Below, one piece after another: positions 7,270 through 12,514 of a DNA stretch of 56,714 bases. Position numbers and translations under genes: made by a program. The stretch is taken from contig JAFVQX010000133.1 in assembly GCA_017504585.1 (NCBI GenBank), positions 1-56,714 of the forward strand, given 5' to 3'. The notes below the pieces were generated by a model, which worked only from the letters and a program-made list of their open reading frames with translations, did no database searches and was not told the DNA's origin. This DNA comes from Lentisphaeria bacterium (GTDB lineage: Bacteria; Verrucomicrobiota; Lentisphaeria; Victivallales; Victivallaceae). Position 1 is the first letter of the stretch; each line of letters begins with the position of its first letter.

Positions 7270-8628
7270 TTGTGGGGATTGCTGGTGGTCTATCTGGCAA
7301 TCCTCGGCTTGTTGGCAGCCAGGGATCCGCAGTTGCTGGTTTTTTACCGCAATTCGCTGCAGCCTGAATTGTCGGCAGGGGCGGTTTGTGTAATGGGGGT
7401 GACCTATCTGTACTTGCTGGCTACCGGCATACTCTGCTGTTTCTACCGCCCGGTCAAAATCGAAGAAGATGATGAAAAACTGCCGGTCTGCACCGTGATC
7501 GTGCCGGCTTATAACGAAGGAGCCTACGTCGAGCGGACCATCAAAAGTCTGCTTTACAGCGATTATCCGGCAGATAAGCTGGAAATCATCGCCATCAATG
7601 ACGGCTCCCAGGACAATACCTGGGATTACATCTGCCGCGGCGCCAATTACTCACCCAGTCAGGTCGTGACCATAAATTTACCGGAAAACAAAGGTAAAAA
7701 ACATGCTATTTATATTGGCGTGAAAGCCGCCCGGGGCGAAGTGATCGTTACGGTGGACAGCGATTCTTCGGTGAAAACCAATACTCTGCGGGCGCTGGTG
7801 ACACCGATGGCAAATCCGGCTATCGGTGCGGTTGCCGGAGCCATACGGGTAAAGACTCCGGAGCAGAGTTTTATTACGTCACTGTTGGATGTGTTGCTGG
7901 TATTCGGCTGCGAATTTCTGCGGGCGGCACAAAGCGTTACTTCGCTGGTGCTTTGCACCCCCGGGGCGTTGAGCGCCTACCGCAAAAGTGCTTTGCTGCC
8001 GGTCATTGATGAGTGGCTCAATCAGACCTTTATGGGCAGACCCGCCAGAATTGGCGAAGACCGGGCGCTTGCCACATTGATCTTGCGCAGTAATTACAAG
8101 ATCGTTCACCAGAGTACAGCCCAGGCGACTACCTGTGTGCCGCGTACTGTTGTGGGGGCATGCAAGATGTTGCTGCGCTGGACCCGCGGGGATATCCGGG
8201 AAAATTTGATGATGACTAAATTTGCGTTCAAAAACTTTCCGCCCCGCAACGTGCGCAGCTGGGTTTTGATCGCCTACTGGGTGGCGCTTACCCAGAATTT
8301 GATACTGCCGTTTTTCTTTATTCCTTCATTTTTTTACATGCTTTTTTACGGTGCTAAAAATCCGGTCATTTTTCTGGCTGCCAACGCGCTGCTCTCTTTG
8401 AGCTGGGCATCTATCCCGGCAATCATTTATTCACGGCATACCAATATCCGTAAAGCGGTTTGGGCATTTATTTACGGGGCGTTCTGCCCCATGATGCTGG
8501 CGCTGCTTTATATTTACAGCTTCCTTACTCTGCGGGATTCCCGCTGGATGACCCGCGAATTGAAAAAACAGAAAAAAGCTGTTCAGGAGCCCGCTTTGCA
8601 GCCGGTGGAACAGCCCACTGTTGAATAA
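7270..8628 (+). CDS. Membrane glycosyltransferase family 2
   Basis: About 452 aa processive-type GT2 of the hyaluronan/chitin/cellulose synthase group. Two N-terminal membrane segments are followed by the GT-A domain (CTVIVPAYNEG; substrate DGSQDNT; metal-binding VDSDS; acceptor motif GEDR; RWTRG standing in for the QxxRW motif) and three or four C-terminal membrane segments. It should polymerise or transfer a sugar from a nucleotide donor at the inner membrane. The start is uncertain. The frame opens at a TTG (7270) without an obvious ribosome site, while an ATG at 7227 begins MLRFFQTPEKT in another frame. Removing one G from GGG at 7259-7261 would fuse the two as ...PEKT-DAILWGLL, so the true protein may start at 7227. 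The charged tail (after LKKQKK) is cytoplasmic. Confidence 0.85.
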   Translation: MWGLLVVYLAILGLLAARDPQLLVFYRNSLQPELSAGAVCVMGVTYLYLLATGILCCFYRPVKIEEDDEKLPVCTVIVPAYNEGAYVERTIKSLLYSDYPADKLEIIAINDGSQDNTWDYICRGANYSPSQVVTINLPENKGKKHAIYIGVKAARGEVIVTVDSDSSVKTNTLRALVTPMANPAIGAVAGAIRVKTPEQSFITSLLDVLLVFGCEFLRAAQSVTSLVLCTPGALSAYRKSALLPVIDEWLNQTFMGRPARIGEDRALATLILRSNYKIVHQSTAQATTCVPRTVVGACKMLLRWTRGDIRENLMMTKFAFKNFPPRNVRSWVLIAYWVALTQNLILPFFFIPSFFYMLFYGAKNPVIFLAANALLSLSWASIPAIIYSRHTNIRKAVWAFIYGAFCPMMLALLYIYSFLTLRDSRWMTRELKKQKKAVQEPALQPVEQPTVE

Positions 8629-8680
8629 ACCTTATCAACTCTTTGATATTAAATAATTTATCTTGTTTGCCGTTGACAAA

Positions 8681-8747
8681 ATCCTCCTATCGTGATCATG
8701 CTTTTCAGCAGCATGCACAAGCAACACTCATCGTGTCAAAGGAGGAT
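8681..8747 (+). promoter_or_regulatory. SD-sequestering leader hairpin
   Basis: ATCCTCCT (8681-8688) is the exact reverse complement of AGGAGGAT (8740-8747), which contains the ribosome binding site of the gene starting at 8753. A second small hairpin (CATGC at 8697-8701 with GCATG at 8711-8715) lies inside the loop. A TTGACA sits at 8673-8678. The fold would hide the Shine-Dalgarno sequence, so expression of the four-gene cassette may be controlled at translation. Confidence 0.5.
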
Positions 8748-8752
8748 GAAGA

Positions 8753-9490
8753 ATGTATTTTATTGATCTTGCCGCCGGCGAAACTGTAACTCCCGCCGGA
8801 CGAAAATCCCAACAGCTCCTTCATTTGGTGGAGGCGCAAAAACAGGAGTTTGAATTTGCATTTATCCGGGATAAAGAGCTTTATACGCTGCCGGAAAATG
8901 CGGAATTTGTTATTACCGGAGATGTTTGCGAAAAAAATCCGGTAGTCATGTTTATCGCTTACGGTACTTTGGCAGAAAACCGGCAGTCAGTCAAATTTGT
9001 TATCGATACTTACACCCGGGAGTATTGCCAGCGGGTCACTGCCAGCAATACACCTTGTCTGATCGATATATCTTTCAAGCTGCCGGGTGATGAATATTAT
9101 ACCCGGCTGGTCCGCTTTACTGCGCTGGCTGACGCCCGCTTGAATATCGAAGGCAATCCGCCGCAGCCTCTGCAGAGTTATTACACCAGAAAAGAGATCG
9201 ATCAGCTGCTGGAAGCTTATCAGCAATCTTTTTCTTTTGCTCCGCCGCAAGTAGAGATCACTACGCTGCCCGCCGGAACTCCTGCCGCTGCCGAAGTCAG
9301 CATTACTACTGAAAAAAACGTTTCCACCATGCATTTTGTTTTTGATCTGCCCACCGGACCGCAGGGGGCTCCTGGTGAACCGGGAGAGCCGGGCGCTTCG
9401 CCGGTACGCGGAGTGGATTATTGGACCGATGAAGATGTAGCCGGATTGAAAGATTACATCGATAATGCCATAATCAACGGGGAGTGGTGA
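8753..9490 (+). CDS. Tail-fibre-like protein with collagen-like segment
   Basis: 245 aa, no signal peptide. The N-terminal 150 residues are a predicted beta-rich domain reminiscent of phage baseplate upper proteins (BppU type). Next comes a fibre-type helix motif (YYTRKEIDQLLEAY), a short beta segment, and a collagen-like Gly-X-Y run (GPQGAPGEPGEPGASP, about residues 200-215). It ends in GVDYWTDEDVAGLKDYIDNAI, a motif type common before the tips of phage tail fibres. It has an ideal ribosome site (AGGAGG, 7 nt before ATG) that can be hidden by an upstream hairpin. First gene of a four-gene cassette. A structural or receptor-binding role is inference; homology was not tested. Confidence 0.65.
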   Translation: MYFIDLAAGETVTPAGRKSQQLLHLVEAQKQEFEFAFIRDKELYTLPENAEFVITGDVCEKNPVVMFIAYGTLAENRQSVKFVIDTYTREYCQRVTASNTPCLIDISFKLPGDEYYTRLVRFTALADARLNIEGNPPQPLQSYYTRKEIDQLLEAYQQSFSFAPPQVEITTLPAGTPAAAEVSITTEKNVSTMHFVFDLPTGPQGAPGEPGEPGASPVRGVDYWTDEDVAGLKDYIDNAIINGEW

Positions 9491-9492
9491 TC

Positions 9493-10743
9493 ATGAGCGT
9501 AAAATCTGTACTTGCCGCGCTTTCGGCTGCCGTTCAGAATAAAACCGGAGTCGCCGGACCTTTGACGCTCGCCGAAATGACCGATGCGGTCAATGATCTC
9601 AAGCTGGGTGCCGACATAACAGTTGAGCATGGTTATATAAATACTGACGGCATGTATCAGGCAATGGATCTTACCGGCAGCAGTCCGGTGGATAAGGGCG
9701 AGCCGGAAGCGGTGGATGAATTGACCATTGTCCGCAGTTGTATGATCGAACCGGAATATGGCGCTTTGAGGCTTTACGAATGTGCAGCAGTTGTTCCACC
9801 GGCTGCCGGAGCTGCTCTGGAAGATCATGTCATCACGCTTTTGCAAATGGATGTAGCTGATCCGGCATGTTGCGGTATTTACCACCTTGCCGATTCCGCG
9901 GCAGCTGATGCGGATAAAGTTTATCAAAAAAACGATCTTCAGCATAAACTGCGGGTAAAAGTTTCCGAAACCGACCCTACCAAGGGGAATATTGTACTTT
10001 GCGACAGCGGCGAGAGTGTTTTGTTCAGTACGCCCACCATGGAGCTGGATAATATCTGGACAAATTGGTTTGATGAATTCTGGGGCGTGGTCTACGGCAC
10101 CAATCCCGACGAGGATTACGAATATGGCAATATGCCTTCTTTTTATGCTTATAAAGCACGTTATGGCGTCCGCGACAGTTACTATGGCGTTGCCGAAATT
10201 ATCCGGCTTGCCGATTGCGGCGAAACTGCACTCAACGGTACTTATGCCATGTGCGGCAACACCATTGAACTTGTAGCCGCCGATTGCGGTTTTGCCTGGA
10301 TCAATGAAGAAGGCAATGTACTTGTCAGTCACAGCGAATTTGCCGCAGATGTCGATGCGGATGATGACGGCATGGCACATTCCATTTATATAAACAAGCA
10401 CGGCAGCAGTCATACTTGTTATTTTTATATGCAAATGACCAAAGATGGTGTGGATACACCTGCACCATTTTCGGAAAGCGACTTCAATTCTTACAGCTGG
10501 GTCACCGGTCCCTGCGGACTGGTGCCAGCCCCGGTATTTTCCGCCGCCGCAGCACCCGCCGGCGAAGCTTCTGCCGGCAGCTGGAGCGGGCGTTTGCTTA
10601 TTCAGAATAAAGATACTTCTGCGTGGGAAACCAGCGCAACACTCTTTGAAAATATGCCGATTTCCGGCGTTACTCCCGAAGTCGGCAAAGTCTATTCTCA
10701 AGATACTACTTTGCAAGTAACCATTGCCGGTGGGCTTGAGTGA
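9493..10743 (+). CDS. Hypothetical phage-tail-associated protein
   Basis: 416 aa, function unknown. The first 40 residues (LAALSAAVQNKTGVAGPLTLAEMTDAV) resemble the short motif that opens many phage tail and fibre proteins (ADAIRxKTG...LTxxEM). The rest is acidic, Cys-containing and beta-rich with no domain I can name, ending in a segment of Ala/Gly linkers (FSAAAAPAGEASAGSW) and a terminal beta repeat. The start is the ATG at 9493, which has GGGGAG 8 nt upstream and follows the previous stop by 2 nt; in-frame GTG codons at 9484 and 9487 are less likely. It is translationally close-coupled to the collagen-like protein. Confidence 0.6.
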   Translation: MSVKSVLAALSAAVQNKTGVAGPLTLAEMTDAVNDLKLGADITVEHGYINTDGMYQAMDLTGSSPVDKGEPEAVDELTIVRSCMIEPEYGALRLYECAAVVPPAAGAALEDHVITLLQMDVADPACCGIYHLADSAAADADKVYQKNDLQHKLRVKVSETDPTKGNIVLCDSGESVLFSTPTMELDNIWTNWFDEFWGVVYGTNPDEDYEYGNMPSFYAYKARYGVRDSYYGVAEIIRLADCGETALNGTYAMCGNTIELVAADCGFAWINEEGNVLVSHSEFAADVDADDDGMAHSIYINKHGSSHTCYFYMQMTKDGVDTPAPFSESDFNSYSWVTGPCGLVPAPVFSAAAAPAGEASAGSWSGRLLIQNKDTSAWETSATLFENMPISGVTPEVGKVYSQDTTLQVTIAGGLE

Positions 10744-10771
10744 AATTGCATTTTAGAAAGGATGAAACATT

Positions 10772-11269
10772 ATGAGCGACATCAATTTATCAAATAAGAT
10801 CACGATCCCGGTAACCGAAGTTGCCGCCGGGCAGCGGGTAATAAAAATTGTCAAAGACGACAAAGCAACTTTTTTCTCCGAAGGTCTGGGCGGCAGAAAT
10901 GGCGGCAGCACCATTTCCACTATTCAGGCTTATACGCCGGTGGTCGATCATGTTTATTATCATGATGTTTATGATACGGTCTGCTATCTGGATGCAGATA
11001 ATTCCATTACATCTGCCGGTTATACTGCCGTGAATATTTCGCTGGTGGATTTGTGGATTTGTCAGCTCGATGCCGAAGAAACTCCCGGCAATATCGTTCT
11101 GCAATGCGGCGACAATACTTTTGTCTTGCCGGTAACACCGGAATTGGTAAAGCGTTCGCTGAAATTGACTAAAACCGTTTCCGGAACTGTTTCTATCGTA
11201 CGGAAAGTCGATGATGCCCGCGATACTTTTGCCGGAACCGTAATTGCAGCTGATTGGCAGGTGGCGTAA
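10772..11269 (+). CDS. Hypothetical protein of the tail-like cassette
   Basis: 165 aa, no signal peptide, not recognised. It is beta-rich with a low-complexity Gly patch (GLGGRNGGS near 38-46) and a His/Tyr-rich stretch (VVDHVYYHDVYDTV). A good ribosome site (AAAGGATG) precedes the ATG, and the stop is directly followed by the next ATG. Its place between a fibre-like and a lectin-like protein suggests a structural adaptor, which is inference. Confidence 0.6.
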   Translation: MSDINLSNKITIPVTEVAAGQRVIKIVKDDKATFFSEGLGGRNGGSTISTIQAYTPVVDHVYYHDVYDTVCYLDADNSITSAGYTAVNISLVDLWICQLDAEETPGNIVLQCGDNTFVLPVTPELVKRSLKLTKTVSGTVSIVRKVDDARDTFAGTVIAADWQVA

Positions 11270-12175
11270 ATGGCTATGATCTCTCTGGAAATGCAAAAAA
11301 TCACAGCTGCCGCAAGACGTTCTGACTGTGCTTTTGCCGTTGTGCCATGGGGCGGCGGCTCCATGATAAATCCCATAAAAAGTAATTCGCAGATACATCC
11401 TGTCCCCGGCTCCAGCTCAAGCGGCAGTTGGGCAAAACAAAATGGCATATTGGTTTTTGAAAATGTCAAACGTACTCCGCAAGGTTTTACTATTGACGAA
11501 GATGAAAAATTATCCGGCATTTTCACCCAGCTGGATTATCGCAACACTCCGGGCACCGGAGGCAAAACTTTTATTGCCAAAGCTTATTGCCCGCTGCAAT
11601 ATGCGCCGGATATAACCAGTACATCGTACCGGGATATGGCTGGTTTCGGTTATGACATTATTGCCCAGGGGGTGGCATCTTACTGGAAAAACGGCTATGT
11701 GTATCAGAGTACTTCGCCGACTCACCCCGGAGTCAAGTACCAATGCTTCCATCTTGCAGTATGGGATTATTCCTTAAAGAAATATTATCCGTATATAACG
11801 TGCAATGTTATATTGTATTATGGTTCATCACCACGCTCATTCAGTGTATATGTAAAAAACATACCGCGGAGCGAGTTATTTGACCGCTTCAATGTTTTTG
11901 CCATGCAGTTCATTCCTGCCGCCGAAACAGAAAATGATATAAGCCAGCTTAAATTATTTTTCAACGGCAACCTGGTCGGTTCATCGAACTGGGTAACATC
12001 GGGAACCGCCCCCAAATGGTACTCTGCTGCGGATGATCAGTGCGGTTTGCACCCGACGATGAGTGTGTGCGCCAATACAACACTTGAACGGACTGCCCGG
12101 CATACTGTCAGCTGGGCGATGGGATTTGACTCGGTTCTGACCGAAGATGAAATCATGGATTTGAGTACTGTTTGA
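11270..12175 (+). CDS. LamG/concanavalin-like protein of the tail-like cassette
   Basis: 301 aa, no signal peptide. After an N-terminal stretch (about 60 residues, with a Ser/Gly linker SSSSGSW), the protein reads as a beta-sandwich. The C-terminus (VSWAMGFDSVLTEDEIMDL) matches the usual end of LamG/concanavalin-A-like domains, where a closing strand is followed by an LTxxEI helix. Such domains bind glycans and form tips of phage fibres. The ATG follows the previous stop without a gap (TAAATG). It is the last gene of the cassette and is followed by a structured repeat. The lectin role is a guess from fold. Confidence 0.6.
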   Translation: MAMISLEMQKITAAARRSDCAFAVVPWGGGSMINPIKSNSQIHPVPGSSSSGSWAKQNGILVFENVKRTPQGFTIDEDEKLSGIFTQLDYRNTPGTGGKTFIAKAYCPLQYAPDITSTSYRDMAGFGYDIIAQGVASYWKNGYVYQSTSPTHPGVKYQCFHLAVWDYSLKKYYPYITCNVILYYGSSPRSFSVYVKNIPRSELFDRFNVFAMQFIPAAETENDISQLKLFFNGNLVGSSNWVTSGTAPKWYSAADDQCGLHPTMSVCANTTLERTARHTVSWAMGFDSVLTEDEIMDLSTV

Positions 12176-12514
12176 CTTAAACCAAAAAGCCGCTGTGGCA
12201 AAAACTCGTAAAAGGTTGCAACGACCCTGTTTTTTGCATAAATTTTTATTTGCTGTCGAAAAAATCAGCAAGTTTGAATTTATACAACAATGTAAAATTT
12301 ATCGCAGGTAAAACGTTGTATATCTTTTATATAAAAGATATTGGGAATGCTTTTGTCGCTTGTGATAAAAGCATTCCCGGTGAAAGTTTTTAGGATAATA
12401 GGAGGCCGTCGCCCCCCAAGGCTATGGCTGGATATTGTGGGGGAGAGGACCTTTTTTCAAAAAGTTTTCTTCCCCGCAAAACAGTTTTGCAACAGCGGCT
12501 TTTTCTGTTGCGCT
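12176..12514. other. Gene-free stretch holding structured repeat copy A
   Basis: A 339-nt gap between convergent genes. Most of it is copy A of a structured element (12272-12496) that recurs at 44086-44376. I see no coding signal here. Confidence 0.7.
12272..12496. repeat. Structured intergenic repeat, copy A
   Basis: About 225 nt, related to 44086-44376. The conserved head (GTTTGaATTTATACAACAA...ATCGCAGGTAAAAC) is followed by a perfect 20-nt palindrome (12321-12340), then a hairpin with 12-bp arms (12343-12354 and 12367-12378) and a 12-nt loop. After a variable middle comes a conserved tail with a small hairpin (GCAAAA-CAG-TTTTGC). Both copies sit between convergent genes. Stem bases differ between copies but stay paired. 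Confidence 0.75.

Follow-up and report, generated by a model that had tools for sequence, protein, structure and literature searches.

A stand-alone cassette of phage-derived fibre genes behind a glycosyltransferase gene in Victivallaceae: a candidate adhesion module

A contig of 56,714 nucleotides from a Lentisphaeria bacterium (Verrucomicrobiota; Victivallaceae; assembly GCA_017504585.1, contig JAFVQX010000133.1, positions 1 to 56,714), referred to here as the window, carries at positions 8753-12175 a cassette of four plus-strand genes, P1 to P4, that is of phage origin and is not a prophage. The cassette stands alone among host genes, its position is linked to a gene for a membrane glycosyltransferase of family 2 (GT2), and its genes are intact and under purifying selection. 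We propose, with a probability of about two in three, that it is a phage-derived adhesion module which was captured as a stand-alone chromosomal operon behind the GT2 gene and has been kept by selection; its product, judged from the sequences, probably serves to bind a surface glycan.

The genus of the window (g1) is represented by five genomes, namely the window genome G000 and G001 to G004, and g16 denotes its sister genus. Nearly all of the compared genomes are fragmentary, genes were called with a simple script for open reading frames, and homology is the sole basis for the functions given to the proteins of the cassette and of g16.

Results

The cassette is of phage origin

The four open reading frames are separated by gaps of 2, 28 and 0 nt, just as a preliminary description, made from the letters of the window, had stated, and the motifs which it quoted from P1 and P2 are present in the translations. 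Scans of the four proteins against Pfam, PHROG and NCBIfam gave almost no matches, a tblastn search of 50,697 phage records with P1, P2 and P4 gave none, and PADLOC had no match.

P1 (8753..9490, 245 amino acids) consists, in this order, of an anchor domain (residues 1 to about 135), a short linker, a collagen-like run (about 202-216) and a 30-residue C-terminal tag, DYWT...NGEW. The AlphaFold2 model has a per-residue confidence (pLDDT) of 83-95 over residues 1-130, and the best structural matches of this domain are phage neck and baseplate proteins, all leading rows being from phages: the TP901-1 baseplate (Z 9.7 over 121 residues), the 80alpha baseplate (Z 8.7) and TP901-1 ORF48, the BppU N-domain (3uh8; Z 8.5). 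Matches in BFVD were BppU-domain and baseplate proteins. We therefore predict a BppU-type fold for the P1 N-domain and regard the match as moderate. The structure comparison which the preliminary description had recommended for all four proteins thus bears on the anchor; the prediction for P2 (pLDDT 36) is not usable. The collagen-like run that had been reported for P1 is there, but it is short and reaches Pfam Collagen only at E 0.09; the 80alpha fibre was also found by profile through this part, and P1 has a weak match to a PHROG minor-tail family (E 6e-5). Outside the genus, the nearest relatives of the P1 N-domain lie in prophages of G032 and G020 (blastp 3e-8 and 4e-5).

The tag, RGvDYWT.eDi..ik.Yvd.aI.NGeW, is strongly conserved across eight different fibre proteins and is found in prophage fibre genes of G028 and G093. 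A census of 137 genomes of the order gave ten strong matches, one per genome, two of them in prophages and eight outside (G000, G003 and six g16 genomes). When viral contigs were scanned with P1, the C-terminal tag alone matched, in two contigs; scans with P2 or a P3 relative gave no match. P2 (9493..10743, 416 amino acids, with its ATG at 9493) begins with a motif of roughly MSxxxxLxALAxAIxxKxGxxGxLTLxxM, followed by a body that is probably the fibre tip. The motif succeeds the tag in other loci as well, including a phage-like operon of an Oscillospiraceae contig (L082), and we infer from these sequences that tag and motif may be a docking pair. With the consensus DYWT...NGxW, the 30-residue tag ends otherwise unlike fibre proteins at L027 (9232-10017), L028, L030-L034, L086, L087, L002 and L082, and its range covers this order as well as Clostridia-type contigs. 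In the loci read, its end coincides with or just precedes the start of the following gene, and it looks like a general docking tag of phage fibres.

P3 (10772..11269, 165 amino acids) is read as a fibre head domain; in G002 and in prophages, collagen-like rods carry its homologues as a C-terminal fusion. P4 (11270..12175, 301 amino acids) adjoins the P3 gene in the relatives read and is a candidate lectin of the LamG or concanavalin-like kind. The LamG assignment made earlier does not hold at a significant level for P4 alone; it does hold for the family, since homologues match Laminin_G_3 (35.3 bits against a cut-off of 27.6 for a relative from L038), and lectin-type chains of the PDB are among the matches of a P4-family profile.

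The prophage late operons of G020, G032 and G036 carry at their distal end consecutive relatives of P1, P3 and P4, namely a P1-like rod, a P3 head and a P4 LamG gene; unlike the cassette, these modules have tape-measure, head-protease or terminase genes as neighbours. The predicted BppU-type fold of P1, the tag with its putative docking motif, and the P3-P4 pair in related prophages together establish that the cassette is of phage origin. The preliminary description had held that discovery of the cassette inside a prophage of related strains would remove its special status; the module family does occur in such prophages, which proves the origin and leaves the stand-alone state of the cassette as it was.

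The cassette lies outside any prophage

A tblastn search with 15 proteins of related prophages, covering terminase, portal, tape measure, capsid and protease (integrase was not among the queries), found no match in the window, in agreement with the earlier statement that it holds no capsid or portal gene, and the same proteins had no match in the cassette flanks of G002 and G003. In the G000 assembly the tape measure PF10145, two terminase types, the sheath PF04984 and the distal-tail family are absent; this genome-wide absence is not proof, as the assembly, in 213 contigs, is 81% complete. The tape measure PF10145 is absent from G003 too, where no tape measure, terminase, sheath or distal-tail family was found, and the sheath occurs in none of 11 genomes. 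Neither a tailocin nor an extracellular contractile injection system (eCIS), as a cluster of sheath or tube with baseplate, was found with PF04984 and PF10145, a search in which non-contractile tube proteins were not separately covered.

Both flanks of the cassette consist of host genes. Upstream lies the plus-strand GT2 gene (7270..8628; Pfam Glycos_transf_2 at 8e-29), and downstream a convergent lipoprotein gene, followed by a permease gene, purM, trkA and trkH (names by sequence reading), a series that is conserved in G004. A strong terminator-like hairpin (12339..12382, plus strand) follows P4 and no terminator is predicted between the GT2 gene and P1, so that GT2-P1-P2-P3-P4 may be one transcription unit, co-transcribed with GT2; a shared promoter upstream of P1 was sought, and no convincing one was found. 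Beyond the hairpin, at 12449-12475, lies the short sequence ACCTTTTTTCAAAAAGTTTTCTTCCCC, whose exact pattern occurs only at this place; spurious open reading frames of L033 suggest a dispersed element similar to it.

Prophages are present elsewhere in G001, G002 and G004, and they carry their own tail-end genes. That of G002 looks complete, lies on another contig than the cassette, and ends (L074, 1547-2146) with a P1-type protein of 199 amino acids that lacks the rod and is apparently a fibre without a tip, followed by small membrane and lipoprotein genes. Two prophage tail operons (L036, 3587-6774; L110, 13639-16432) hold an AIDA-type repeat protein adjoining a TibC/heptosyltransferase-like gene (TibC_1st at 1e-14, Glyco_transf_9), possibly a glycosylated phage fibre, and a reverse transcriptase near the G004 prophage fibre genes (L110, 9972-11051; RVT_1 at 1e-14) is possibly part of a diversity-generating retroelement.

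The GT2 site across the genus

The GT2 gene is present in all five g1 genomes. In G002 and G003, as in G000, a P1 relative (44-50% identical) stands directly behind it, in G003 as P1-P2 and in G002 as P1 fused to P3, then P4. G004 has an empty site, where 208 nt separate the GT2 gene from the lipoprotein-permease-purM-trkA-trkH series that the window also has, and G001 has a GT2 gene without a cassette. Co-occurrence of the four genes had been suggested as a check; P1-led cassettes are found in 3/5 genomes, and their gene content is not constant. Since the outer flanks of the GT2-cassette unit are unlike among G000, G003 and G002, GT2 and cassette appear to have stayed, or come, together while their surroundings changed. 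Relatives of GT2 occur in 68 of 120 related genomes, and no cassette was found behind GT2 in other genera among the downstream contexts inspected. Convergent with the G002 cassette is a gene for a protein of 2538 amino acids with peptidase C10, AIDA stalk and CARDB domains (L026, 983-8599).

All cassette frames are open at an amino-acid identity of only 48%. In P1 the proportion of nonsynonymous differences (pN) is about 0.35 and that of synonymous differences (pS) 0.68-0.74, with differences clustered at third codon positions; synonymous divergence (dS) is near saturation in the g1 comparison, and no exact ratio of nonsynonymous to synonymous rates (dN/dS) is claimed for it. The cassettes are apparently intact and under purifying selection.

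A leader that is predicted to hide the ribosome-binding site

The GT2 gene and P1 are separated by a plus-strand leader of 124 nt (8629..8752), in which the stretch ATCCTCCT (about 8682-8689) is predicted to pair with AGGAGGAT (about 8741-8748) in a hairpin that masks the Shine-Dalgarno sequence. Across the three congeners the leader is 107-124 nt long, and in 3/3 the minimum-energy fold pairs the Shine-Dalgarno sequence, with probabilities of 0.999, 0.998 and 0.994, values attained by 0.3, 1.4 and 0.2% of shuffled leaders; across the fetched loci, just seven of the 83 genes whose Shine-Dalgarno site is clear reach a probability of at least 0.99. Both partner strands are altered together in the G002 leader, which has ATTACT/AGTAAT in place of ATCCTCCT/AGGAGGAT. 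With three sequences compared, conserved pairing is suggestive. Rfam has no known family for the leader. The Shine-Dalgarno sequence is also hidden in a prophage fibre gene (L039), and the feature may therefore be inherited from phages.

Distal-tail loci in genus g16

A parallel and stronger case is found in g16. Its six tag-bearing loci carry further distal-tail genes, in the series postTMP (A9), followed by NTG, X, P1, P2 and a DUF1353-like or IHD gene; prophage counterparts of these distal-tail genes sit between tape measure and fibre. Six g16 species share the P1 C-terminal tag of the window, and g16 loci also have the P2-type docking motif. The g16 P1 N-domain is related to the prophage P1 N-domain (hhalign 99%); a viral-contig scan with a g16 P1 and a comparison of the distal-tail family profile with the PDB gave no match.

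A search of the order for postTMP gave matches in 31 g16 genomes, mostly single copies, and 20 places from 19 of these genomes were fetched for their contexts. In 18 of the 20 no hallmark gene is nearby, while L117 is a prophage and L132 is ambiguous; most of the 18 have the order post-NTG-X-P1-P2, some with a DUF1353-like gene thereafter, and several end at contig edges. Over the 24 g16 genomes inspected in all, the genes of this family make up short loci that lack phage hallmark genes. Ten species (L115, L116, L119, L120, L121, L123, L124, L126, L127 and L133) have the distal-tail locus at one position beside yidC-jag, without tape measure, portal or terminase, and on its far side at least six of the ten have a Sel1-repeat gene, an lpxD-like gene or both. 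Three other loci lie beside gapA and one at a folC/568-aa position. In G057, G061 and G135 postTMP is found at a second chromosomal locus (L105 18742-20000, L107 594-1490, L108 5085-6285), apart from NTG-X-P1-P2 and syntenic between species, with one small gene before it in G057 and G135; here too it is under purifying selection (dN/dS 0.08-0.21).

Among the ten yidC-linked species, pairwise identities of postTMP, X and P1 rise and fall with those of YidC (Mantel rho 0.68-0.78, p 0.001-0.007, n 9-10), as vertical inheritance of these distal-tail genes would predict. Between species with loci in orthologous positions, P1 retains 81-88% identity (dN/dS 0.08-0.17) and P2 only 47-58%: the anchor is conserved and the tip variable. 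Orthology of the window and g16 cassettes is not claimed, as a sequence tie between their P1 N-domains was sought and not found, and the two are accordingly read as parallel captures, not as one inherited locus. In several g16 loci the fibre genes are followed by the gene of a small protein, probably with a single membrane helix near its N-terminus (L121 13435-13737, L123 4101-4433, L086 6425-6853), possibly a holin, a spanin or a membrane anchor, and as such a lead for export or lysis.

Discussion

The suggestion in the preliminary description that this is a stand-alone module domesticated from a phage has gained in two ways: relatives hold homologous modules within prophages, whereas in three congeners intact copies stand alone behind GT2; and g16 has a vertically inherited stand-alone version of distal-tail genes. 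In the mechanism that we envisage, P1 would form anchor and rod, trimerising through the collagen-like part; its C-terminal tag would dock the P2 tip; P3 and P4 would form a second, glycan-binding lectin head; and the leader may regulate translation by hiding the Shine-Dalgarno sequence. In phages the BppU-type domain binds the baseplate. If the anchor is conserved for its fit to a partner, that partner would be a tail encoded elsewhere or a new partner in the host.

Several observations weigh against capture and maintenance as an adhesion module. Unrelated Ig-like folds match the P1 N-domain with Z up to 7.7, just under the phage matches. The three congeners differ in what their cassettes contain, and similarity in P1 does not track similarity in GT2, so that exchange or repeated acquisition is possible. 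The GC content at third codon positions (GC3) of the cassette in G000 is 0.47-0.49, compared with 0.59 (sd 0.033) for the other window genes, and the cassette is therefore not fully ameliorated; GC3 is less low in G003 and near the GT2 value in G002, and the pattern over the three congeners fits acquisition followed by amelioration. No signal peptide is seen by eye at the four N-termini, as had been noted before, and no membrane anchor in P1-P4, which leaves the products without an apparent secretion route. A tail locus elsewhere could be missed in a G000 assembly of this completeness. Finally, the P1 N-domains of the window and of g16 have no profile link, which makes the g16 case an analogue and not an orthologue.

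Some of these observations would suit a remnant of a decaying prophage, that is, the fibre end of a late operon, intact by chance and now functionless: the genes match the distal end of prophage late operons, congeners vary in cassette content, and G000 and, in part, G003 have a low GC3 there. Chance survival accords poorly, however, with an intact P1 behind the same GT2 in three species, with the conserved leader and purifying selection, and with the analogous g16 loci, which are intact in many species, co-diverge with YidC and, at orthologous positions, show a P1 dN/dS of 0.08-0.17; we consider a remnant distinctly improbable. Hardly better placed is the idea that the cassette supplies alternative receptor-binding fibres in trans to a resident or incoming phage, or to a tailocin encoded elsewhere, its BppU anchor docking a real baseplate. 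A conserved anchor and variable tip, as in g16, are expected if the anchor still fits such a partner; the prophage on another contig of G002 has a P1-type protein lacking rod and tip; and a hidden ribosome-binding site would suit conditional expression. Against this, no tape measure, terminase, sheath or distal-tail family was found in G000 or G003, and the prophages of G001 and G004 carry tail-end genes of their own.

A narrower form of our preferred explanation is a host surface adhesin coupled to a glycan made by GT2, which would be bound by the fibre or attached to it. That GT2 and P1 are neighbours in three species whose outer flanks are unlike, on the same strand and with no terminator predicted between them, speaks for such coupling, as does the lectin-like P4 family. 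We nevertheless think it unlikely, given that GT2 relatives are found in over half of the related genomes with no cassette in the other contexts inspected, and given the lack of a visible signal peptide or membrane anchor in P1-P4. A wider reading, in which the family runs tail-less adhesion devices, as a vertically inherited host apparatus of distal-tail and fibre parts, lacking tube, tape measure, sheath and head, that binds glycans or other cells, with the window cassette as its minimal, fibre-only and conditionally translated form, is offered tentatively, as a doubtful prospect.

The capture of an adhesion module, our preferred explanation, can be set beside known systems. Like the BppU-type devices of siphophages (TP901-1 BppU/ORF48, the 80alpha upper fibre gp68), the cassette joins the predicted N-domain fold of P1 to a collagen-like rod and encodes the putative receptor-binding part downstream; unlike them, it has no Dit, Tal, tape measure, tube or head genes, and it lies behind a host GT2. 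Tailocins, eCIS and gene transfer agents are, like the cassette, phage-derived parts kept as chromosomal host genes. These systems keep tail tube or sheath together with assembly genes, whereas PF04984 is absent from the 11 genomes and PF10145 from G000 and G003. PblA and PblB are encoded within an SM1-type prophage whose lysis genes aid their release, whereas no prophage surrounds the cassette. In streptococci these phage tail-type proteins serve as host adhesins (PMC4508584, PMC2920869). The g16 loci resemble the cassette in that phage distal-tail and fibre genes stand alone in the chromosome and have been kept there, and differ from it in having five or six genes in place of four, another position, and another sequence family of the P1 N-domain.

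We found no description of stand-alone or orphan tail-fibre or adhesion-device loci in the literature, in a search that left subscription journals mostly outside its coverage. Domesticated phage tails described so far retain the tube or the machinery for injection. What is new relative to these is that the adhesion end alone persists, a state apparently reached two or more times within one bacterial family and, in one genus, shared by many species at one chromosomal position. These are defined loci, some of them syntenic over ten species, in which to ask what such fibres bind and how they exit the cell. If they are functional, phage receptor-binding devices can become host genes by themselves.

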